Source of the DNA: Luteimonas sp. JM171
Lineage (GTDB): Bacteria > Pseudomonadota > Gammaproteobacteria > Xanthomonadales > Xanthomonadaceae
DNA: 64,000 nucleotides
Assembly (NCBI RefSeq): GCF_001717465.1
Contig: NZ_CP017074.1
Span: 1,020,873-1,084,872, forward strand
Direction: 5' to 3'
A program made the position numbers and the translations under genes. Of the stretch, positions 14,862-31,089 are shown piece by piece (the stretch's first letter is position 1; each line of letters begins with the position of its first letter). Below the pieces are notes generated by a model. It was not told where the DNA came from and searched no databases. It saw only the letters and a program-made list of their open reading frames with translations.

Positions 14862-14870
14862 TGGTATAAT
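14862..14870 (+). promoter_or_regulatory. Extended -10 promoter of gyrB
   Basis: TGGTATAAT: a perfect TATAAT (14865-14870) preceded by an extended -10 TG. The base pairs at -35 are a poor match. It is followed directly by the palindrome CAACCGGTTG (14871-14880) around the expected transcription start, 80 bases before the gyrB ATG. Confidence 0.65.
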
Positions 14871-19789: not shown

Positions 19790-20449
<660 letters not shown>

Positions 20450-20544
20450 TCTCCCGCCGGCCCTGCCCGGGCCGGCCGATCCAGTTCAATCCCAGCGTCA
20501 CCCTTGATCCATCAACTTCAATCTTCATTACAAAGGTAAGCGTC

Positions 20545-21306
20545 ATGCTGCAGGAAACCACCAACGCCCCTACCGGAGCCGCCGACGGCGCCGCAGCGCT
20601 TCAGCAGATGGGCTTCGCCGACATGATCCAGCACCTGGACGTGGTCGGCTGGACTGCTCTGCTCACCCTCCTCACGATGTCCGCGCTGTCGATCTACTGG
20701 ATCATCTTCAACTTCTTCAAGAACCAGCGCCTGCGGGCCAACTCGGACCGCGTGATCAACACGTTCTGGGAAACGCCGAACGCGCAGGACGCCATCCGCT
20801 TCATGGAAGAGCAGCGCCCGAGCGAGCCCTTCTCCAAGATTGCGCTTGACGCCGCCCAGGCGGCCGCCCACCACCAGCGCCAGGAAGGCTCGCGCCTTGC
20901 CGAGTCGCTGACCCGCTCCGAATACGTCGACCGCGCCCTGCGCCAGGCCGTCGTGCGCGAATCGCTGCGCCTGGAGTCCGGCCTGACCCTGCTCGCCACC
21001 GTGGGCTCGATCGCCCCGTTCGTGGGTCTGCTGGGTACGGTGTGGGGCATCTACCGCGCCCTGATCCGCATCGGCGCCAGCGGCCAGGCCGACATCGGCG
21101 CGGTTGCCGGTCCGGTCGGTGAGGCCCTGATCATGACCGCGATCGGTCTGGGCGTCGCGATCCCGGCGGTGCTGGGCTACAACTTCTTCACCCGTGCCAA
21201 CCGGATGATCAACAACAAGCTCGACACCTTCGCGCACGACCTGCACGACTTCTTCGCGATCGGTTCGCGCGTCGGCGACGTTCCCGCCCCGGCGAAGAAG
21301 GCCTGA
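20545..21306 (+). CDS. exbB: Proton channel subunit ExbB
   Basis: MotA/TolQ/ExbB family proton channel, 253 residues with three membrane segments (about residues 35-55, 145-165, 190-210). Family motifs ATVGSIAPFVGLLGTVWGIY and GPVGEALIMTAIGLGVAIPA are intact. It follows tonB by 95 bases and precedes two exbD genes with short gaps, giving a complete inner-membrane energising complex. Confidence 0.96.
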   Translation: MLQETTNAPTGAADGAAALQQMGFADMIQHLDVVGWTALLTLLTMSALSIYWIIFNFFKNQRLRANSDRVINTFWETPNAQDAIRFMEEQRPSEPFSKIALDAAQAAAHHQRQEGSRLAESLTRSEYVDRALRQAVVRESLRLESGLTLLATVGSIAPFVGLLGTVWGIYRALIRIGASGQADIGAVAGPVGEALIMTAIGLGVAIPAVLGYNFFTRANRMINNKLDTFAHDLHDFFAIGSRVGDVPAPAKKA

Positions 21307-21332
21307 CCCGGACAGACTGAGGGAGGCCGCAT

Positions 21333-21752
21333 ATGTCCTACAGTGGCAACCAAGGTGGCGGCGAACCAATGGCCGCCATGAACGTCGTACCGCTGGTCGA
21401 CGTGATGCTGGTGCTGCTCATCATCTTCATGGTGACGGCACCGCTGATGGCACACCGGGTGGAAGTGGAGCTTCCAAGGGCCGATCTGGAAGATCGGCCG
21501 GATACCGCGCCGCCGGCGCCCCCGATCACCATCGCGGTCAAGGACAATGGGGATATCTTCCTCAATGACCAGCCGGTCACCCATGAGCTGCTGGAAAGCG
21601 CGCTCTCGGTGGAAGCCCAGAAGACCCCGCAACCGCCCGTCAACGTGCGCGGGGACCGCACCACCCCGTACCGGGTGATCAACGAAGTGGTGACCATCGC
21701 GCAGTCCCAGGGCATGCGCAAGGTCGGCTTCGTCGCCACCCGCGAAAACTGA
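21333..21752 (+). CDS. exbD1: ExbD-family proton channel subunit 1
   Basis: 139 residues, single N-terminal membrane helix [20 protein letters not shown] with the essential Asp of VDVMLV, and a periplasmic domain ending GMRKVGFVATREN. Preceded by GGGAGG. The first of two adjacent ExbD paralogues; in Xanthomonas two exbD genes at this locus are known, and the second is dispensable for iron uptake there. Confidence 0.94.
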   Translation: MSYSGNQGGGEPMAAMNVVPLVDVMLVLLIIFMVTAPLMAHRVEVELPRADLEDRPDTAPPAPPITIAVKDNGDIFLNDQPVTHELLESALSVEAQKTPQPPVNVRGDRTTPYRVINEVVTIAQSQGMRKVGFVATREN

Positions 21753-21764
21753 CGGAGGCCCGCA

Positions 21765-22178
21765 ATGGCATTCAGTACCAGCTCCGGCGAAGGGCCCATG
21801 GCCGACATCAACATCATCCCGCTTGCGGACGTGATGCTGGTGTTGCTGATCATCTTCATGGTGACCGCCCCGCAGCTGTCGTATCCGATCGACATCGACC
21901 TGCCCCAGCGCTCGGTCGATCCGCCGGAACAGCGCGTCGACCCGCCCGAACCGATCCGCCTGCGGATCGACGGCGCGGGCCAGGTGTTCTGGAACGACAG
22001 CCCGACCCCGATGAGCGCCCTGCGCAACATGATGGAAGCCGAGGTCCAGCGCGATCCGGGCAACCAGCCCACGCTGGAGATCGACGCGGCCGAGGACTCG
22101 CAGTACGGGGTCCTGGCCAAGGTCCTGGCCGAAGCCAAGAACGCGCAGATGCAGAAGATCGGTTTCGTCAAGAAGTAA
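21765..22178 (+). CDS. exbD2: ExbD-family proton channel subunit 2
   Basis: 137 residues, 12 bases after exbD1, with GGAGG upstream. Same layout: membrane helix [20 protein letters not shown] with conserved Asp, periplasmic domain ending MQKIGFVKK. It differs in having a Pro-rich linker with a repeated DPPE motif. Probably gives the Exb complex an alternative composition. A strong terminator follows. Confidence 0.93.
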
Positions 22179-23423: not shown

Positions 23424-24869
23424 CTAGAGCAGCGGTGACAGCAGTCGGGCCAGTGCCTCCGGCAATCGGTGGCGCAGCGGCCGCTTCGATTCGGCCTTCA
23501 CTTCCGGCGCGTTCTCGAACTCGCCCTCGAGGTGCTGCTCGAGCTCGGCCGCCAGTTCCTCGCCATCCAGCAGCATCGACACCTCGAAGTTGAGGCGGAA
23601 GCTGCGATGGTCGAAGTTCGCGCTGCCCACCAGCACCATGTGTTCATCAATCAGCAGCGCCTTGGTGTGCAGCATCCTCGGGCCATATTCGTGCACCTTG
23701 ACCCCGGCTTCCATCAGCGTGTCGAAGTAGGAGCGTGCCGCCAGCGTGGCCAGCACCGAGTCGCTGCGCTTGGGCACCAGCAGGCGCACGTCGAGCCCGG
23801 CCAGCGCGGCCGAGGTCAGCGCCATGATCGCCGCCTCGCCGGGGACGAAATACGGCGTGGCCAGCCAGACCCGCTGGCGGGCACCGTGGATCGCCCCGAC
23901 GTAAAGGCGGTGGATCGCCTCCCAGGACGAATCCGGCCCCGATGCCAACACCAGCGCCGGGGTCTCGCCGGGCGTGACGGGCCGGGGCGTCTGCGCCGCG
24001 ATCTCCTCCAGGCAATCGTCCTCGCCCGCGGAATAGATCCAGTCCTCGGCAAACACCCGCTGCAGGCGCAGCACCGCCTCGCCTTCCACCCGCAGGTGCA
24101 GGTCCCGGAACGCGTCCTCGCTGTGCCGCTCGTCGTGGTCATCGCTGATGTTGACGCTGCCGGTGTAGCCGATGCGCCCGTCGATCACCACGATCTTGCG
24201 GTGCGAGCGCAGGTTGACCCACGGCCGCTGCCAGACCCGGCCGAACCTGGGCGGGTGGAACCAGGCCACCTCGCCGCCGGCTTCGATCAGGTCGGTGAAG
24301 AACCGGCGCGAGCGGTGGCCGCCCACCGCGTCGATCAGCAGCCGCACCTTGACCCCTGACCGTGCACGTTCGACCAGCGCGTCGCGCAGCGCGGTGCCGG
24401 CGTTGTCCGGGTGGTAGATGTAGTACTCCAGATGAATGTGGAATCGCGCAGCCCGCACATCCTCCAGCAGCGCATCGTAGGTGGCGCAACCGTCGATGAG
24501 CAGGCGGATGTCACTGGCGCGGCTGCGCCGCAGGCCGGTGGTCATCTCCGCCAGGCGGATGAGCTCGGCGGTTTCGGTGGCTTCGTCGGTGTAGTCCGCC
24601 TCCCCGGTCATCCGCGCACGGCTGGTTTCGCGCCGCAGCCGGTGGCGCCGGATCTTCTGCGGGCCGAACACGTGGTAGACCAGAAAGCCCAGGTAGGGCA
24701 GCAGCGCCAGCCCCAGCAGCCAGCTCAGGGTGGCCACCGGCTCGCGCTTCTGCAGGATGATCCAGCCGCCCAGCAGCAGCACGTACAGCAGCCATCCCAG
24801 CACCAGCAGCGTCACCAGGCCGGAGCCGGAAGTAAGTGATTCCCAGCCGCGCAGCAGCATGTCCTGCAT
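23424..24869 (-). CDS. cls: Cardiolipin synthase (phospholipase D superfamily)
   Basis: Makes cardiolipin from two phosphatidylglycerol molecules at the inner membrane. 481 residues: two N-terminal membrane segments (LVTLLVLGWLLYVLLLGGWI and TLSWLLGLALLPYLGFLVYH), then two HKD motifs, HRKIVVIDGRIGYTGS (about residue 224) and HTKALLIDEHMVLVGSANFD (about 400). Both active-site halves are intact. Divergent from the fap-like operon, sharing a 281-base intergenic region. Confidence 0.95.
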   Translation of the reverse strand: MQDMLLRGWESLTSGSGLVTLLVLGWLLYVLLLGGWIILQKREPVATLSWLLGLALLPYLGFLVYHVFGPQKIRRHRLRRETSRARMTGEADYTDEATETAELIRLAEMTTGLRRSRASDIRLLIDGCATYDALLEDVRAARFHIHLEYYIYHPDNAGTALRDALVERARSGVKVRLLIDAVGGHRSRRFFTDLIEAGGEVAWFHPPRFGRVWQRPWVNLRSHRKIVVIDGRIGYTGSVNISDDHDERHSEDAFRDLHLRVEGEAVLRLQRVFAEDWIYSAGEDDCLEEIAAQTPRPVTPGETPALVLASGPDSSWEAIHRLYVGAIHGARQRVWLATPYFVPGEAAIMALTSAALAGLDVRLLVPKRSDSVLATLAARSYFDTLMEAGVKVHEYGPRMLHTKALLIDEHMVLVGSANFDHRSFRLNFEVSMLLDGEELAAELEQHLEGEFENAPEVKAESKRPLRHRLPEALARLLSPLL

Positions 24870-24949
24870 CGTTTCGATCCATGGGCGGGCGCCGGCCTGG
24901 CGCGGCCACAGGCTAACCGACCCGGGGCCTGTAACAACGTGGTGTCCGC

Positions 24950-24967
24950 TGTAACGGCGGCGTTACA
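24950..24967. promoter_or_regulatory. Candidate upstream activator site 1
   Basis: TGTAACG (24950-24956), spacer GCGG, CGTTACA (24961-24967): a perfect seven-base inverted repeat, centred about 168 bases before the predicted sigma-54 start. A further half-site TGTAACA lies at 24930-24936. Proposed binding site for the sigma-54 activator encoded at 31123-32448. Confidence 0.65.
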
Positions 24968-25019
24968 CCCCGAAAGACCGCGCCGCTGCGCGATTTTCCC
25001 CGCCCTGCGGCCGTGGATG

Positions 25020-25037
25020 TGTAACGCCCGCGTTCCA
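25020..25037. promoter_or_regulatory. Candidate upstream activator site 2
   Basis: TGTAACG (25020-25026), spacer CCCG, CGTTCCA (25031-25037): the same arms as site 1 with one changed base, 70 bases further downstream centre to centre. Repetition of the motif at this distance supports a specific enhancer-type element. Confidence 0.6.
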
Positions 25038-25069
25038 GTTGCATGGTTTCGATGCGAGGAATGTTGCCG

Positions 25070-25082
25070 CAAGTCATTGATT
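25070..25082. promoter_or_regulatory. Candidate IHF binding site
   Basis: CAAGTCATTGATT fits YAANNNNTTGATW, the reverse complement of the IHF consensus WATCAANNNNTTR, at every position. It lies between the proposed activator sites and the -24/-12 element, where IHF bending is needed at sigma-54 promoters. Confidence 0.6.
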
Positions 25083-25099
25083 TTACCGGACAAAAACGG

Positions 25100-25116
25100 T
25101 TGGCACGGCTCCTGCG
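25100..25116 (+). promoter_or_regulatory. Sigma-54 (-24/-12) promoter of the fap-like operon
   Basis: TTGGCACGGCTCCTGCG compared with consensus YTGGCACGrNNNTTGCW: the -24 GG (25102-25103) and -12 GC (25114-25115) are exactly ten bases apart and only two less critical bases differ. Expected start near 25127, about 25 bases before the first gene. Confidence 0.8.
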
Positions 25117-25150
25117 TTGATAAGGGGCGCTATCCGTTGAGTGCCCCGCA

Positions 25151-25645
25151 ATGACCAGACCCACCCTTCCGCTGTTTGTCACCCTGGCCGCAGCTGCGAT
25201 GCTGCCGGGCCTCGCGGACGCGGCCGATGCGCGCGCCGGGGTCCATGCCCGGCACGGCGAGATGACCGTGCTGCGCGACGTCCACGCACGCCACGCCTAC
25301 CGCCAGGTGCCCAAGGGCATGGCCCTGATCGTTGATCCCACGCCCAACCGCGAGATCAACAACGGCCTGGGGCTGGGGGAAATGAGCGACGCCGACTTCG
25401 CCACCATTTCTTCGGGCCAGACCCTGTCGCAGCTGCGATCGGTGTCGGGCATTGATGCCACCGTGAACAACGCGATCGGCGTGGGCCTGGGCACCGGCCA
25501 GGTGCAGCACTCCGGCACCGGCGTGGGCGGTACCCCGACCGGCCCCCTGGGCACCGTGGGCGCCACCACCCGCGGCATCAGCGGGCATGTGACCGGCGCG
25601 CTCTCCAATCTTCCGTTCGGCAAGTCCGGGCAGGGCGGGCCGTGA
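25151..25645 (+). CDS. fapA: FapA-like small secreted protein
   Basis: 164 residues, signal peptide ending GLADAADA. A conserved-looking centre reads YRQVPKGMALIVDPTPNREI then LGEMSDADFATISSGQTLSQ; the C-terminal third is Gly/Thr-rich and low complexity. It holds the fapA position, first in the operon and 24 bases downstream of the predicted sigma-54 start. In Pseudomonas, FapA is a periplasmic protein that influences subunit handling. Assignment rests mainly on operon position, length and export, so the gene name is tentative. Its stop overlaps the GTG start of the next gene. Confidence 0.62.
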   Translation: MTRPTLPLFVTLAAAAMLPGLADAADARAGVHARHGEMTVLRDVHARHAYRQVPKGMALIVDPTPNREINNGLGLGEMSDADFATISSGQTLSQLRSVSGIDATVNNAIGVGLGTGQVQHSGTGVGGTPTGPLGTVGATTRGISGHVTGALSNLPFGKSGQGGP

Positions 25646-26295
25646 CCATGCGCGGCATCACGGGGGCGTTCATGCTGATGATCGCGCTGTCCATGCAGGC
25701 GCTGCCCGCGCACGCGCAGCAGGCCGGCGACGACTACGCCGACATGCTCCAGTACCTGGCTGAGACCCGCATCGGCGACGACGTGCTGGCCGGCGCCAGC
25801 GGCGCCATCGCGGTCAACATCGCCGCCGGCGATCTCAACCAGCAGGCCAACCTGCGCAGCATCGCGATCGGCGAATACGCCCAGGCGTCGAGCGTCGCGC
25901 TGCAGCGCCACCACACCGACGTGGCGACGGCGCCGGACCACGCCATCGCCGTCATTTCAGGCAACGCCCTGCAGGGCGCGGGCGGCCTGGCATCGATCAA
26001 CCAGGCCAGCGGCACCGGCAATGCGGAACTCAACGCAGTGACGGTGGCGCTGGCGCAACGGGGCATACGCGAGACCCCCGACGCGCTGTTGGCGTCGGCG
26101 GACTTTGCGTCGGCAGGAGTGCAAGCCATCTCCGAACCAGGGGCCGCAGGAACGCATACCCGAGAGGTGGGCGTTGATGGGTCCGCCTTGCAAGGGTTCG
26201 ACGGGGTTCTGCAGCTCAACCAGGCCGCGGGTGTCGCCAATGCCACGGAGAACAGGTTGCTGATCTCCGTGCAGGGCGGCGGCCCCGGCATTTGA
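25642..26295 (+). CDS. fapB: FapB-like minor amyloid subunit with three imperfect repeats
   Basis: 217 residues from GTG 25642 (GTGA overlap with the preceding stop); ATG 25648 is equally possible. Signal peptide ends LPAHAQ. Three repeats with Gly-x-hydrophobic-x-Asn-x-Ala-x-Gly-x-x-Asn spacing: GASGAIAVNIAAGDLNQQAN (about 51-70), LQGAGGLASINQASGTGNAE (110-129) and LQGFDGVLQLNQAAGVANAT (183-202). This is the repeat style of Fap amyloid subunits. The smaller size and position before the large repeat protein fit FapB, proposed nucleator in Pseudomonas. No cysteine is present. Confidence 0.72.
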   Translation: MTMRGITGAFMLMIALSMQALPAHAQQAGDDYADMLQYLAETRIGDDVLAGASGAIAVNIAAGDLNQQANLRSIAIGEYAQASSVALQRHHTDVATAPDHAIAVISGNALQGAGGLASINQASGTGNAELNAVTVALAQRGIRETPDALLASADFASAGVQAISEPGAAGTHTREVGVDGSALQGFDGVLQLNQAAGVANATENRLLISVQGGGPGI

Positions 26296-26324
26296 TCCAA
26301 GAAGGAAAACACCAGGAGACGATC

Positions 26325-27989
26325 ATGAAAGGCAATTTGAAGATCACGGCCCTTGCAGCCGCCGTCGCGAGCTTCGCGATGGGCACTGCCGCGGCGCAGG
26401 TGGCGCCGCCGGATGTCACCACCGCGGTCGACACCGACATCTACATCTGGGGCGATGTCGAAGCCGTGGGTGAAGTGGCGGTGGGCGGCGAGGTGAACGT
26501 TGGCGGCGACGTCAACTTCGACATCAACTACGAGCAGAACGACGTCGTCAACCGCAACGTCAACCTCAACGACGACCGCAGCTACACCGAAGACATCAAC
26601 GTCGCGGTCAACGACACCCTCAACTACACGACCAACCTGACCGAGGACCTGAGCTACTCGTCCGACATCTCCGAGGACCTGAGCTACACGTCCGAGATCA
26701 ACGAGGACATCAACTACACCGCCGACTTCGCCGAGAGCCATACGCTCACGACGAACGAATCGCACAACCTGGAGACCAACGAGGTCAGCTCCAACATCGT
26801 GCGCAACGAGTACGGCCGCACCGACATCCGGGGCGAGCGCGACGAGCACGGCGTGAGCGTGCAGATCGACAAGTCGCTGTCGCTGAGCTCGGACATCGCC
26901 TTCAGCGGCGACCCGACCATCAGCGGCGACATCGAGCTGGATTCGGCGGCGATCGCAGTGGTCGACAACCGCCAGTCCAACACCGGCAACGTTGGCCTGA
27001 ACGACATGCTCACCAATGACGCGTCGGCCGGTGACGACACCGCTTCGGGCGCGTCGGGCAACCTCCAGTTCAACATCGCCGCCGGCGACAACAACGTGCA
27101 GGACAACGCCGCGGCGCTTGCCGCCGCCGACGCCGGCTTCTCCTTCGGCCTCGCCGATGCCGAGATCTTCGTCAACCAGTACGGCTCGGGCAACACCACC
27201 GTCAACGAGGGCGTGACCAACAGCGCCGCCGTTTCCGGTGCGGCCTTTGACGGCGCCTCGGGCAACATCGGCGTCAACATCGCGTCGGGCAACAACAACA
27301 TGCAGAAGAACGCGATGACGTCCTCGGTTGCCACCGCCGCCTATGCGCAGGCCTCGGTGAGCTCCAACCAGGTGTCCTCCGGCAACATCGTGACCAACAC
27401 CGGCATCGTCGAAGAGATGACCGATTCGGTCGACGTCGCCCTGAGCGGAACCATCAGCGGCAGCATCGAGGGTTCGGCCACCGGCAGCTACGGCGGTTCC
27501 TCGGCCGGCGGCTACTCGGGTTCGGGCAACTCGTACCAGAGCAGCAACTTCTACGCCGACATCTGGGAAGGCGAGGAGCACCCGACCGGGCCCGCCATGG
27601 GCCACGCCGACTTCGACATCGAGAGCCAGGGCGCGGTCGAGAACCCGTTCCAGGACGGCGTCGGCGGCCTGGGCTTCGACAACGTCGAGTCCGGCAGCTA
27701 CGAGGGCAGCGAGCAGGGCGAACTGTCGTTCGACGAGCTCTCCTTCGCCGACCTGCAGGCCAGCCTAGCCGGCACCGTTTCCACCACCCAGTGGATCATC
27801 CGCGATGCGACCAACACCGCGGCCCTGTCCGGCAGCGCCTTCTCCGGCGCCTCGGGCAACATCGGTGTGAACCTGGCCGCCGGCGCCGGCAACATGCAGG
27901 CCAACAGCCTGTCCATGGCCGTCGCGCAGCCGGGTAACGGCGAAGCCCCGCCCCCGAGCAACGGTAACGGCGGCGGTAACGGTGAGTAA
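26325..27989 (+). CDS. fapC: FapC-like major amyloid fibre subunit
   Basis: 554 residues from ATG 26325, with CAGGAG upstream. Signal peptide ends MGTAAAQ. Residues 96-135 form four tandem decapeptides: NDTLNYTTNL, TEDLSYSSDI, SEDLSYTSEI, NEDINYTADF. Three Fap-type repeats follow: GASGNLQFNIAAGDNNVQDN (242-261), GASGNIGVNIASGNNNMQKN (310-329) and GASGNIGVNLAAGAGNMQAN (508-527), separated by long linkers, one of them Gly/Ser-rich (374-407). The protein is acidic, Asn-rich and lacks cysteine. In Pseudomonas, FapC is the main fibril component and polymerises outside the cell. Size, repeats and position support the same role here; fibril formation itself is inferred. Confidence 0.78.
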   Translation: MKGNLKITALAAAVASFAMGTAAAQVAPPDVTTAVDTDIYIWGDVEAVGEVAVGGEVNVGGDVNFDINYEQNDVVNRNVNLNDDRSYTEDINVAVNDTLNYTTNLTEDLSYSSDISEDLSYTSEINEDINYTADFAESHTLTTNESHNLETNEVSSNIVRNEYGRTDIRGERDEHGVSVQIDKSLSLSSDIAFSGDPTISGDIELDSAAIAVVDNRQSNTGNVGLNDMLTNDASAGDDTASGASGNLQFNIAAGDNNVQDNAAALAAADAGFSFGLADAEIFVNQYGSGNTTVNEGVTNSAAVSGAAFDGASGNIGVNIASGNNNMQKNAMTSSVATAAYAQASVSSNQVSSGNIVTNTGIVEEMTDSVDVALSGTISGSIEGSATGSYGGSSAGGYSGSGNSYQSSNFYADIWEGEEHPTGPAMGHADFDIESQGAVENPFQDGVGGLGFDNVESGSYEGSEQGELSFDELSFADLQASLAGTVSTTQWIIRDATNTAALSGSAFSGASGNIGVNLAAGAGNMQANSLSMAVAQPGNGEAPPPSNGNGGGNGE

Positions 27990-28052
27990 GAACGCACCCT
28001 GAGGGTGCACGAGGTTTCCCGGCCTTTCCCCTGTGGCCGGGATTCAATGGAA

Positions 28053-28102
28053 GCCCCGCTCCGCCTCCCCCGCGGAGCGGGGCCTTCCTTCGGAAAAGGA
28101 AG
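28053..28102 (+). other. Strong intercistronic hairpin after the major subunit gene
   Basis: GCCCCGCTCCGC (28053-28064), seven-base loop, GCGGAGCGGGGC (28072-28083): a perfect 12-pair stem, directly followed by a smaller one, CTTCC (28084-28088) with GGAAG (28098-28102). There is no U tract. It lies in the 118-base gap between fapC-like and fapD-like genes, the largest gap in the operon, and could act as an attenuator or 3' stabiliser. Confidence 0.6.
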
Positions 28103-28107
28103 ACCAG

Positions 28108-28842
28108 ATGATCAGGACACGGCCGCACTGGAACCTGGCAAGGCCCCTGGGGGCGATGCTTGCGCTCGCCGGAGGCCTGGCCGCACTCGCCGCTCCAGGC
28201 GCGTACGCCGCGGACATCCAGTTCGCCGGCGTGCTGCCCAACGGGGCGATGTTCACCAAGTCGGTCGAGAGCATGACCGAGAGCCGGTTCCGGCACCTGG
28301 TGCGGCAGGAGACCGACTACAGCTGCGGGGCCGCGGCGCTCGCCACCATCCTGCGCTACGCCTATCGGCTCGACGCCGACGAGGCCACGGTGATCGAAGG
28401 GATGATGATGGTGTCCGAGCCGGAGATCGTCCGCGAGCGCGGCTTCTCCCTGCTCGACATCAAGAACTACGTGGAATCACTGGGCATGCGCGGGCGCGGC
28501 TACCGGGTGGACGAGGAGCGGCTGCGCAGCCTGCGGGTGCCCGCGATCGTGCTGATGGACGTGGCCGGGTTCCGCCACTTCGTGGTGCTCAAGCAGGTCA
28601 TGGGCGACACCGTGGAGATCGGGGACCCGATGCTGGGCAACCGCAGCGTCCCGTTCGACGAATTCATGGAAGGGTGGCCGTCGCGGGCCGTGTTCGTCGT
28701 GATAGGCAGTGACTTCGACCGCAACACCGTGCTGCTTGATCCGCCTTCGCGCCCGAGCGCCAAGGCCCTGTATGCACGGCAGGGTCCGCTGACCGACGCC
28801 GAGCTGCTGGATTTCGGCTTCACCCACGCGGACCTGTTCTGA
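28108..28842 (+). CDS. fapD: FapD-like C39 family peptidase
   Basis: 244 residues from ATG 28108 (GGAAG upstream). Signal peptide ending GAYAADI. C39-type papain-like fold with Cys in DYSCGAAALATILRY (about residue 73), His in FRHFVVLK (about 157) and Asp in IGDPMLGN (about 173), so the catalytic triad is complete. FapD in Pseudomonas is a C39-like protease required for fibre production. An exported stand-alone C39 domain, with no ABC transporter attached and surrounded by amyloid subunit genes, is characteristic of the Fap system. Confidence 0.85.
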   Translation: MIRTRPHWNLARPLGAMLALAGGLAALAAPGAYAADIQFAGVLPNGAMFTKSVESMTESRFRHLVRQETDYSCGAAALATILRYAYRLDADEATVIEGMMMVSEPEIVRERGFSLLDIKNYVESLGMRGRGYRVDEERLRSLRVPAIVLMDVAGFRHFVVLKQVMGDTVEIGDPMLGNRSVPFDEFMEGWPSRAVFVVIGSDFDRNTVLLDPPSRPSAKALYARQGPLTDAELLDFGFTHADLF

Positions 28843-28855
28843 CAGGAACAACGAC

Positions 28856-29626
28856 ATGAACGCAATCCATTCGCTGGCGCGCACGCTGCTCCTGGGGGCA
28901 CTGCTGTGCGCTGCGCCGGCGCTGGCGCAGGAGGCCCCGGCGCCAACCGCGCGCGGCCTGACCGAGATTCCCGACAGCGAGCTGGGCCTGATGCGCGGCC
29001 GCTTCGTCGCCGGCGACAACCAGGTCCTGTGGTTCGGGGTGTCGATGATCTCCAGCTGGCAGACCAGCTCAGGGCAGCTGCTGCAGGGCCGGCTCGACAT
29101 CGGCTTCGACTTCAGCGACGGCCAGCCGGTGCTGAGCTTCAGTCCCAACGTCGTGCTCACCGACGAGCACGCGCCCATGCCGGTGCCATCGGGCCAGCGC
29201 AGCGTCGAGAGCGCCGGGCTGCAGAACGTGGCGGGCCTGGTGCAGGGGGTGCAGGTGGCCGGCGACGGCAACGCCGCCAGCAATGTGACCTCGCTGAGCC
29301 TGCGCGACGGCGAGGCGCCCGGCGCGGGCACCCCCGCCGGCCTGTCGCAGGGAAGCCTCGACCGGCATTCCGGGCCGGCGAGCGCGCGCGTGCAGTTCGA
29401 CCGCAATGGCGCCGGCGTGAAGCTCGAAGTGGCCGGCCATGGCACGGCCGAACAGTGGATCCGGTCGGGCAGCCTGGGCCAGAGCATCCGCCTGCTGAGC
29501 GATGGCCAGGCGGTCCGCAACCAGCTGCACCTGGACATGGTGCGCCAGTCGCTTCCCGCCACAGCAATGCTCAACCAGAACGTGGCCCAGGCCCTGGTGA
29601 CCACACGCGGCATCGGCGGTCCCTGA
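28856..29626 (+). CDS. fapE: FapE-like secreted protein
   Basis: 256 residues, signal peptide ending PALAQ. N-terminal motif IPDSELGLMRGRFVAGDNQV (about 38-57), then a beta-rich segment and one Fap-like repeat, GLQNVAGLVQGVQVAGDGNA (121-140). In Pseudomonas FapE is a minor extracellular component. The assignment relies on the fifth position in a fap-ordered operon, export, length and the single repeat; the mature protein has no cysteine. The last base of its stop is the first base of the next ATG (TGATG). Confidence 0.68.
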   Translation: MNAIHSLARTLLLGALLCAAPALAQEAPAPTARGLTEIPDSELGLMRGRFVAGDNQVLWFGVSMISSWQTSSGQLLQGRLDIGFDFSDGQPVLSFSPNVVLTDEHAPMPVPSGQRSVESAGLQNVAGLVQGVQVAGDGNAASNVTSLSLRDGEAPGAGTPAGLSQGSLDRHSGPASARVQFDRNGAGVKLEVAGHGTAEQWIRSGSLGQSIRLLSDGQAVRNQLHLDMVRQSLPATAMLNQNVAQALVTTRGIGGP

Positions 29627-31089
29627 TGCGTTCCGGGGGGAACAACCAGGACCAGGGTCGATCGCAGGGAGCGGCCCGGCCGGCTGTGCGCGCGGCACCG
29701 CTCACCTTCGCCCTGGCCGCCGCGCTGGCGTGCACCGCCGCGCCGGCGATCGCCCAGGACGCCCGGCCCGCGGGCGAGGAGCCGGGCGGGCAGGGACAAG
29801 CCGCCGCCGGTGAAGCGAGCGCCTCGGAGCGCGCCGAGATGGCCCGCATGATGCAGGAGCTGGCCGCGCTCAAGGCGGCCTATTCGCAGGAGGTCCGCCG
29901 GCTGCGCGAACTCGACATGCAGATGCAGGCGCTGCAGGCGCGCATCAGCGGGCGTGCCCCTGCGGCCCCGCAGCCGCAGCAGGCCGCACCCCAGTCCGCG
30001 CCGGCGCCAGCTCCCGCCGCCCAAGCGCCGCCGGCGGCCACTGCCCAGGCCCCGGCCCAGGCGCCGCCGCCCGACGCCGGCTATGCCAGCTCGGCCGAGG
30101 ATGCCGAGCGCGCGCGCGAGGAGGAGGCGCGCAGCGTGTCCGACGTGCGCCAGCAGCAGCAGGCGCTGTTCAACCAGCGCCTGGTGATCGACAACGGCAT
30201 CAGCTACAACCGCTACGATCGCAAGCAGCTCACCCTCAACGGCTTCCTTGCCCTGGATGCGATCTTCCTGGGCAACATCGCGATCGAGAACGTCGAGTCC
30301 GATACCTTCACCTATAACCTGGCGCTGCGCTGGGGCGTGTCCCCGCGCCTGACCCTGAACCTGGACGTGCCGTGGATCTGGCGGCGCACCGTGTACCAGA
30401 AGGGCGGCGCGGGCGGTGCGGCCGCCGTGATCGCGCAGTCCCATACCAGCGGCTCGGGCCTGGGCGACGTCACCGCCAGTGCCAACTACCGCCTGTTTAC
30501 CGAAAGCAGCTTCCTGCCCGAGGCCGTGCTCACCCTTGGCGTGACCGCGCCCACGGGCCGCGAGCCGTATGGGATTCCCTGGCGCGTGCTCGAGCGCGAC
30601 GAGGACGACTTCATCCGCTTCGCGGTGCCCGAGGAGCAGCCCACCGGCAACGGCGTGTGGCAGGCCTCGGCGAGCCTGTCGGCGGTCAAGGCCACCGAGC
30701 CGGCCATCCTGTTCGGGAACGTCGGCTATACGCGCTCGTTTGCCGCCAGCTTCGACGACCTGGACAACAACCCCGCCACGGTCAACCCGGGCAGGGTGCA
30801 GCTTGGCCAGGCGTTCACCCTTGGCGCGGGCGTGGCGTTCGCGTTCAACGAGCGCACCAGCCTGAGCATCGCCTACAACAACCGCTTCAACGCCCGCGCG
30901 CGTACCCGCTATGACGACGGCGGCGAGTGGACCAAGCTGATCGGCTCGGATGGCAATGCCGCCACCCTGAGCCTGGGCGTGACCCATGCGCTCAGCCCGA
31001 GCGCGACGTTCGTGGGGATGCTCGGCATCGGCCTGACGCCCGATGCGCCGGACTTCAGCCTCAACTTCAAGGTCCCCTACACCCTGTAA
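29626..31089 (+). CDS. fapF: FapF-like outer-membrane amyloid secretion porin
   Basis: 487 residues from ATG 29626. A long n-region and signal sequence end PAIAQ (about residue 44). Then a coiled coil of roughly 40 residues (66-107, MARMMQELAALKAAYSQEVR and on), an Ala/Pro/Gln linker (108-150), a second charged helix, and a beta-barrel from about 185 to the end with alternating hydrophobic strands, finishing VPYTL. This is the layout of the trimeric FapF porin of Pseudomonas, where the coiled-coil/plug regulates passage of FapB and FapC. Last gene of the operon; 33 bases separate it from the convergent sigma-54 activator. Confidence 0.82.
   Translation: MRSGGNNQDQGRSQGAARPAVRAAPLTFALAAALACTAAPAIAQDARPAGEEPGGQGQAAAGEASASERAEMARMMQELAALKAAYSQEVRRLRELDMQMQALQARISGRAPAAPQPQQAAPQSAPAPAPAAQAPPAATAQAPAQAPPPDAGYASSAEDAERAREEEARSVSDVRQQQQALFNQRLVIDNGISYNRYDRKQLTLNGFLALDAIFLGNIAIENVESDTFTYNLALRWGVSPRLTLNLDVPWIWRRTVYQKGGAGGAAAVIAQSHTSGSGLGDVTASANYRLFTESSFLPEAVLTLGVTAPTGREPYGIPWRVLERDEDDFIRFAVPEEQPTGNGVWQASASLSAVKATEPAILFGNVGYTRSFAASFDDLDNNPATVNPGRVQLGQAFTLGAGVAFAFNERTSLSIAYNNRFNARARTRYDDGGEWTKLIGSDGNAATLSLGVTHALSPSATFVGMLGIGLTPDAPDFSLNFKVPYTL

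Follow-up and report, generated by a model that had tools for sequence, protein, structure and literature searches.

A predicted sigma-54 promoter with paired enhancer dyads in front of the fap operon of Luteimonas sp. JM171

How is a functional amyloid operon controlled outside Pseudomonas? The question is raised by a fap locus in the window, a 64,000-nucleotide stretch of the genome of Luteimonas sp. JM171, in which the space in front of fapA carries sequences of the kind used by sigma-54 RNA polymerase and its enhancer-binding activators. We compared this locus with those of relatives in the genus and family, of Pseudomonas and of more distant bacteria.

The fap operon and its upstream region

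By gene content, six open reading frames of the window are a fap operon, fapABCDEF: they stand in the order fapA-fapF and include a C39 peptidase (FapD) and an outer-membrane barrel (FapF), and their amyloid product is predicted from these genes. The best NCBIfam model for each frame is that of its own fap gene, FapA to FapF in order, with every score below the model's cut-off. FapF also matches the solved Pseudomonas FapF crystal structure (5o65) with an E value of 7.2e-76, and the fapF ATG overlaps the fapE stop codon by one base. FapC (26292-27989) has ∼550 residues with short DINY/DLSY-type repeats near the N-terminus, and the protein is 244-334 residues long in the four Pseudomonas loci compared. 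Further upstream, at 19790-22178, TonB-, ExbB- and two ExbD-like open reading frames, recognized from sequence, lie in a row. Coordinates are given in Table 1.

Table 1. Features of the fap locus, in positions of the window
Feature	Position	Strand	Remarks
Phospholipase-D-type gene (PLD)	23424-24869	minus	divergent from fapA
Possible third site, degenerate	24930-24947	plus	TGTAAC half-site; 20 bp upstream of distal dyad; weak
Distal enhancer dyad TGTAACGGCGGCGTTACA (predicted)	24950-24967		perfect; 151 bp upstream of -24 element
Proximal enhancer dyad TGTAACGCCCGCGTTCCA (predicted)	25020-25037		one mismatch to dyad; 81 bp upstream of -24 element
IHF consensus WATCAANNNNTTR (predicted site)	25070-25082	minus	exact match; 31 bp upstream of -24 element
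-24/-12 sigma-54 element TGGCACGGCTCCTGC	25101-25115	plus	GG-N10-GC, TGGCAC-type context
fapA	25151-25645	plus	NF058617 E 9.3e-12, below cut-off
fapB	25642-26295	plus	NF058557 E 9.4e-26, below cut-off
fapC	26328-27989	plus	NF058558 E 1.3e-53, below cut-off; ORF opens at 26292, start codon not fixed
fapD, C39 peptidase	28090-28842	plus	PF03412 E 2.2e-20; NF058616 E 1.5e-78, below cut-off; ORF opens at 28033, start codon not fixed
fapE	28856-29626	plus	NF058559 E 1.4e-28, below cut-off
fapF, outer-membrane amyloid transporter	29626-31089	plus	NF058560 E 2.6e-106, below cut-off
BrfA-like sigma-54 activator, 441 residues	31123-32448	minus	convergent behind fapF

The 281-bp intergenic space between the PLD gene and fapA carries four elements, which follow one another 5' to 3' as distal dyad, proximal dyad, IHF consensus and -24/-12 element, and then fapA. 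An earlier reading of the window, made from sequence only, had described the two dyads, the exact IHF match, the -24/-12 element with its GG-N10-GC spacing and, as the nearest regulator, a convergent sigma-54 activator behind the operon; all of these were found in place. Transcription of fapA would be expected to start near 25126-25127. A simple scan of 24870-25200 revealed no sigma-70-type promoter.

The two copies of TGTAACG-N4-CGTTMCA, whose starts are 70 bp apart, are the only exact matches in the whole genome (2,992,253 bases), where the reversed control pattern gave zero. The proximal dyad is the weaker, retaining seven of the eight positions at which the distal site does not vary among relatives; the possible third site has a matrix score of 4.7, against 25.0 for the distal dyad. 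The IHF consensus has one further exact match in the window, at 14868. The -24/-12 element deviates at two positions from TGGCACGN4TTGCW and on its own is at chance level, with 10 matches in the window (70% GC) as against 14.5 in shuffles when up to two mismatches are allowed. The finding exceeds chance because the elements combine and are conserved, not because of the -24/-12 element alone.

Covariation between the dyad arms was also considered. When the arms are treated as a six-pair helix across 14 sites, four pairs are invariant and one pair only changes on both sides. Shuffles reached the observed values of five covariation measures in 157, 490, 94, 482, and 82 of 500 cases, and for this reason we do not claim compensating arms.

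Conservation and co-occurrence with fapF

A FapF search of 61 genomes gave some match in 26 and a strong one in 15. These 15 were taken to hold a fapF orthologue (E ≤ 5.2e-162; the next best match is at 2e-33), and upstream regions were obtained for 14 of them, the window included. The sequence-only reading had proposed a comparison of such regions as its check, and it stands up to it. Both TGGCACGN5TGC and the dyad TGTNNC-N6-GNNACA are present in 14/14, and in 2000 dinucleotide shuffles the dyad occurred in a mean of 0.06 and a maximum of 2 of 14 regions.

Because the pattern had been generalized from these same 14 sites, it was run against whole genomes as a composite (dyad, 128-150 bases, TGGCACGN5TGC). 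Twenty of 52 genus genomes have the composite, each of them once and always at fapA; the reversed control gave one match in the 52. Thirteen of the sites belong to loci first examined, and the other seven (L187-L193) each lie directly before fapA. Genomes with the composite are exactly those with a fapF orthologue (14/37 and 6/15 of the genus), and it is absent from all 32 genus genomes lacking one. The activator behaves in the same way: at E ≤ 1e-100, 15 of the 61 genomes have an orthologue of it, and these are the same 15 that have the fapF orthologue; at this threshold 0/46 of the remainder have one, weaker homologues occurring elsewhere. The gene order PLD, fapA-F, reversed activator, radical-SAM gene is retained in most relatives in the genus.

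The proximal site is more variable. At 80-83 bp from the element it is among the four best matrix matches in 12 of the 14 regions, including the window, and the other two have a TGTAAC half-site at 80-81 bp. Its matrix score is 9.5 in the window, 13.5 at best and as low as -4.6, lying near or below zero in L037, L040, L046, and L047. The site is degenerate throughout the window's group, none of whose 21 regions has an exact proximal dyad.

For comparison, 80 named Pseudomonas loci, the best 80 of 215 found with a solved Pseudomonas FapF, were examined. A homologous activator lies reversed behind fapF in 77; in the other three the contig ends shortly after fapF. The element [ACGT]GGCA[CT]N7GC with at least one exact upstream dyad is present in 76/80. 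The exact proximal dyad occurs in 74 loci, at 81 bp in 72 and at 80 and 82 bp in one each, and the distal dyad in 67, at 128 (5 loci), 138-140 (17), 150-151 (28), or 162-163 bp (17). The composite was not found in four loci. Two of them, L148 and L161, stop short of fapA; in L157 the dyad at 163 bp has one mismatch, and L165 is a true miss. Of the 76 composite loci, seven contain an additional plus-strand element that has a dyad in range; on the minus strands there were two composite matches in all. The window thus shares dyad, IHF-like site and spacing with these loci but differs in that its proximal dyad is degenerate and its distal dyad perfect, and in that its -24/-12 element begins with T, mostly C in Pseudomonas.

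When up to two mismatches are allowed, 20 of the 21 regions in the window's group have an IHF-like site 30-31 bp from the element, and 70 of the 76 Pseudomonas loci have one at 32 bp. The exact consensus is present in 9/21 and 1/76, respectively, the others being mismatched. Shuffled 75-base stretches often contain a site of this quality at any position (mean 3.7 of 21, maximum 9; mean 23.3 of 76, maximum 35), and so the evidence for IHF lies in the fixed position.

More distant loci were found with a FapF model in 26 of 369 genomes at class level (E ≤ 1e-40) and in 21 of 398 at phylum level (E ≤ 1e-60). We examined 29 of them (17 of 28 class-level and 12 of 21 phylum-level places) with a looser criterion that allows one mismatch in a dyad. 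An activator homologue lies near the operon in 24/29. The composite precedes the first fap gene in 14, although at L089 the match depends on a poor element, and both dyads are present in 10. Besides the window's family and f171, taken to be that of Pseudomonas, the families with both dyads are f143 (L084), f138 (L094), and f166 (L098). Under the same criterion there were seven matches away from promoters, two of which had both dyads; most of the seven were the same palindromes read from the opposite strand.

The composite was not shown in 10 of the 24 loci with an activator (L083, L085, L087, L088, L090, L095, L099, L199, L204, and L205). The available stretch begins inside the operon in L087 and L099, leaving eight loci that speak against universality; among these, L083 and L085 contain dyads with a single mismatch, at 81 bp and, further out, at 139 and 150 bp. 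Five of the 29 lack an activator, of which two, L201 and L202, are informative: L096 runs into a contig end, the L203 stretch opens close to the start of the operon, and L086 has no gene recognized before fapD. L201 and L202, from another class of the phylum, have neither an activator in the stretch nor the composite. Since several gammaproteobacterial families have both dyads and eight loci fail, the enhancer layout is, to judge from these sequences, old within the gammaproteobacteria and not universal for fap, and L201 and L202, with no sigma-54 activator in the stretch, suggest that fap may also be controlled otherwise.

Four loci of the same genus (L048, L049, L051, and L052) contain Fil-like operons encoding a FapD-like C39 protein and a FapF/FilC-like barrel, with a sigma-54 activator downstream on the same strand; a VpsR domain was found in that of L048. 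In four of five Fil-like loci a TGGCA[CT]..TGC element is accompanied by a TGTTTC-type dyad (up to one mismatch) at 123-125 bp. These operons are perhaps a sister enhancer system.

Spacing of the distal dyad

Classic sigma-54 enhancers, such as those of NtrC and NifA, have upstream sites at ∼80-160 bp with IHF in between and act in a manner dependent on the face of the helix; a half-turn shift can abolish activation. The fap layout differs from them in its activator and in the sequence of its sites.

In the first 14 regions the distance between distal dyad and -24 element is 149-154 bp (9 regions) or 160-165 bp (5). A scan of 395 genomes of the family, allowing 138-168 bp, gave 69 matches in 65 genomes: 42 at 149-154, 22 at 158-166, and 5 at 139-143 bp, with none at 144-148, 155-157, or 167-168 bp. 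Some of the 69 are chance matches, since the control gave 18 in 17 genomes (counted by eye), and outside the genus a location at fap was confirmed only for G225 and G334 (loci L091 and L093). Eight likely off-target matches (139 twice, 140 twice, 143, 149, 150, and 162 bp) were left out of the period analysis by eye, although one of these, at 140 bp in G516, looks like a true dyad.

In Pseudomonas the spacing classes are separated by mean steps of 10.7, 11.8, and 12.2 bp; the mean step in the family is 10.1 bp. The best period is 11.8 bp in Pseudomonas (R 0.95), 11.2 bp in the family, where the maximum is flat (R 0.68), and 12.0 bp for both combined (R 0.77); no one helical period suits all the data equally well. 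In three relatives (L037, L038, and L041) the distal dyad is preceded by a second, weaker site, which starts 13 bp further upstream and might let the distal site hop between registers.

We read the spacing as the result of selection that holds the dyads to one side of the helix as seen from the polymerase. The same classes could reflect descent, a few spacings having been inherited with no bearing on function; genomes that are related are no independent samples, and the classes were defined from the data themselves. Yet the four Pseudomonas classes need at least 11 changes on a tree of fapD-F DNA (76 rows, 66 labelled; a quick tree with some forks unresolved), and still the distal dyad is confined to 8 of the 36 positions between 128 and 163. 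Eight distinct positions drawn at random were equally periodic in 0/20000 draws, under a null that ignores clustering; a figure of (8/36)^11, being post hoc, was given no weight. The family-wide clusters on either side of the empty 155-157 interval likewise argue against descent, which we regard as an unlikely explanation.

We lean towards a shared ancestral fap enhancer code in several gammaproteobacterial families. It would consist of a proximal dyad at ∼81 bp, a distal dyad that has moved many times but almost only by whole turns, and, between dyads and promoter, an IHF site at 31-32 bp.

The neighbouring activator and other candidate regulators

The activator gene lies reversed behind fapF, as brfA does in Pseudomonas fluorescens PF07, with synteny in relatives. 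Its product has a diverged VpsR-like N-domain, an AAA+ domain with GAFTGA and Walker A motifs, and a Fis-type HTH. The N-domain has diverged from that of Pseudomonas BrfA: the VpsR domain (PF20161) is matched at E 0.022, below the Pfam threshold, and the end typical of BrfA-like proteins (FFDFHTLP...LGRAFGMA) is not recognizable. PF20161 passes the threshold in two relatives, L034 and L047, and likewise in L118, a BrfA-like protein of Pseudomonas; a third relative, L092, gives no match. In the predicted structure (mean pLDDT 79, pTM 0.64) the N-domain is α/β, and the model matches NtrC1, NtrX, LuxO, FleQ, and VpsR structures, VpsR ranking after the other four; the match to VpsR of Vibrio cholerae (PDB 7v2b) extends over most of the length of the protein. 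The likeness to VpsR comprises this fold match and the PF20161 domain of some relatives, the window protein itself differing in its subthreshold score.

In a tree of activators the window's group is a clade of its own (100*) inside a set with support 84 that includes the Pseudomonas, most other fap, and the fil activators. The Pseudomonas proteins sit nearer other gammaproteobacterial fap activators (support 85); long branches are present in the tree. The HTH motif [SA]RxTxYRL is shared by 113 of the 119 collected activators (the window's counted twice) and is absent from L088, L089, L095, and L052 and from the FleQ-like and PilR-like activators of this genome. The genome has three strong sigma-54-activator matches (230-244 bits), namely a FleQ-like protein beside rpoN, a PilR/NtrC-like protein and the fap-adjacent one, and four weak matches (21-35 bits), which we regard as other AAA+ proteins. 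We assigned the names FleQ-like and PilR-like from sequence and place, and the FleQ-like protein passed no NCBIfam cut-off. There are two rpoN genes (G000:C1:1734437-1734907 and 2638890-2639351), so that a 3-Mb genome pairs two rpoN genes with only three strong activator matches.

An RpoN-dependent fap promoter has been described before. In Pseudomonas fluorescens PF07, a -24/-12 promoter of fapA was mapped by 5'-RACE, fap expression is lost in rpoN and brfA deletions, and brfA is the adjacent reverse gene downstream of fapA-F (PMC9207406), an arrangement like that of the window. BrfA of PF07, which is not among our 80 loci, is reported to sense c-di-GMP (PMC9207406, PMC13101488). Of the interpretation offered in the sequence-only reading, the regulatory part is supported by conservation, co-occurrence and the Pseudomonas layout, and the statement that no such fap operon was known falls. 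In the same work fapF of PF07 is not upregulated with fapA-E, the RpoN-dependent unit being fapA-E (PMC9207406), whereas fapF overlaps fapE in the window. BerB of Burkholderia cenocepacia is similarly described as an RpoN-dependent, c-di-GMP-binding enhancer-binding protein of biofilm matrix production with a TGGCAC-type -24/-12 element, but it drives berA (exopolysaccharide) and not an amyloid operon; the text consulted contains no word beginning "palindrom" and no "inverted repeat" (PMC5552954). The accessible parts of a review and a 2013 evolutionary study (PMC6173800, PMC3792158) do not contain "sigma" or "RpoN". In the fap, BrfA, VpsR-type and enhancer-phasing literature, from which subscription papers were mostly missing, no title or abstract start named a fap enhancer motif, and within that scope we found no description of the double dyad with IHF or of a conserved, phased layout.

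The elements found, their conservation, their co-occurrence with fapF and the activator, and the spacing classes make it highly probable that 24950-25115 is a working sigma-54 promoter and enhancer of fapABCDEF driven by the neighbouring activator. We infer the following mechanism. RNA polymerase with RpoN would rest as a closed complex at the -24/-12 element, and dimers of the BrfA-type activator would bind the two TGTNNC-N6-GNNACA dyads, where the TGTNNC half-sites are probably recognized by its HTH. IHF would bend the DNA at its predicted site so that an activator hexamer reaches the polymerase and opens the complex by ATP hydrolysis. The trigger is probably raised c-di-GMP, by analogy with BrfA. 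That c-di-GMP is the signal here seems fairly likely; it is less sure than in Pseudomonas because the N-domain match is weak and its typical end unrecognizable.

FleQ might instead control fap through these sites. In Pseudomonas ogarae F113, c-di-GMP induction of fapB needs FleQ (PMC9279365), and a FleQ-like activator is encoded beside an rpoN gene here. The composite, however, tracks fap across the genus, as does the neighbouring activator (15/15 against 0/46), and the FleQ-like HTH lacks the motif common to most fap activators; the effect in F113 may be indirect. We consider control by FleQ very improbable. Also very improbable is a reading in which the dyads serve another dimeric regulator, such as a repressor, and the nearby sigma-54 activator does not need them. 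In its favour, a dyad does not by itself identify the protein that binds it, and eight activator-bearing wider loci with the promoter region in the stretch fail the composite criterion. Against it, the spacing between dyads and -24 element is constrained, the proximal dyad lying at 80-83 bp and the distal one shifting by about one turn at a time, as expected of an activator that touches the polymerase, and the informative loci without a nearby activator, only two in number, both lack the composite.

Control by the neighbouring activator would extend RpoN/BrfA-type regulation of functional amyloid from Pseudomonas to another family, and the composite is a DNA signature by which all fapF-bearing genomes among those examined in the genus were recognized. 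Should the spacing classes be functional, fap promoters would provide a ready series for testing enhancer reach and helix face. If the ancestral code is real, the fap operon would be a natural in vivo experiment on enhancer phasing, with a mean step of ∼11.5 bp in Pseudomonas.
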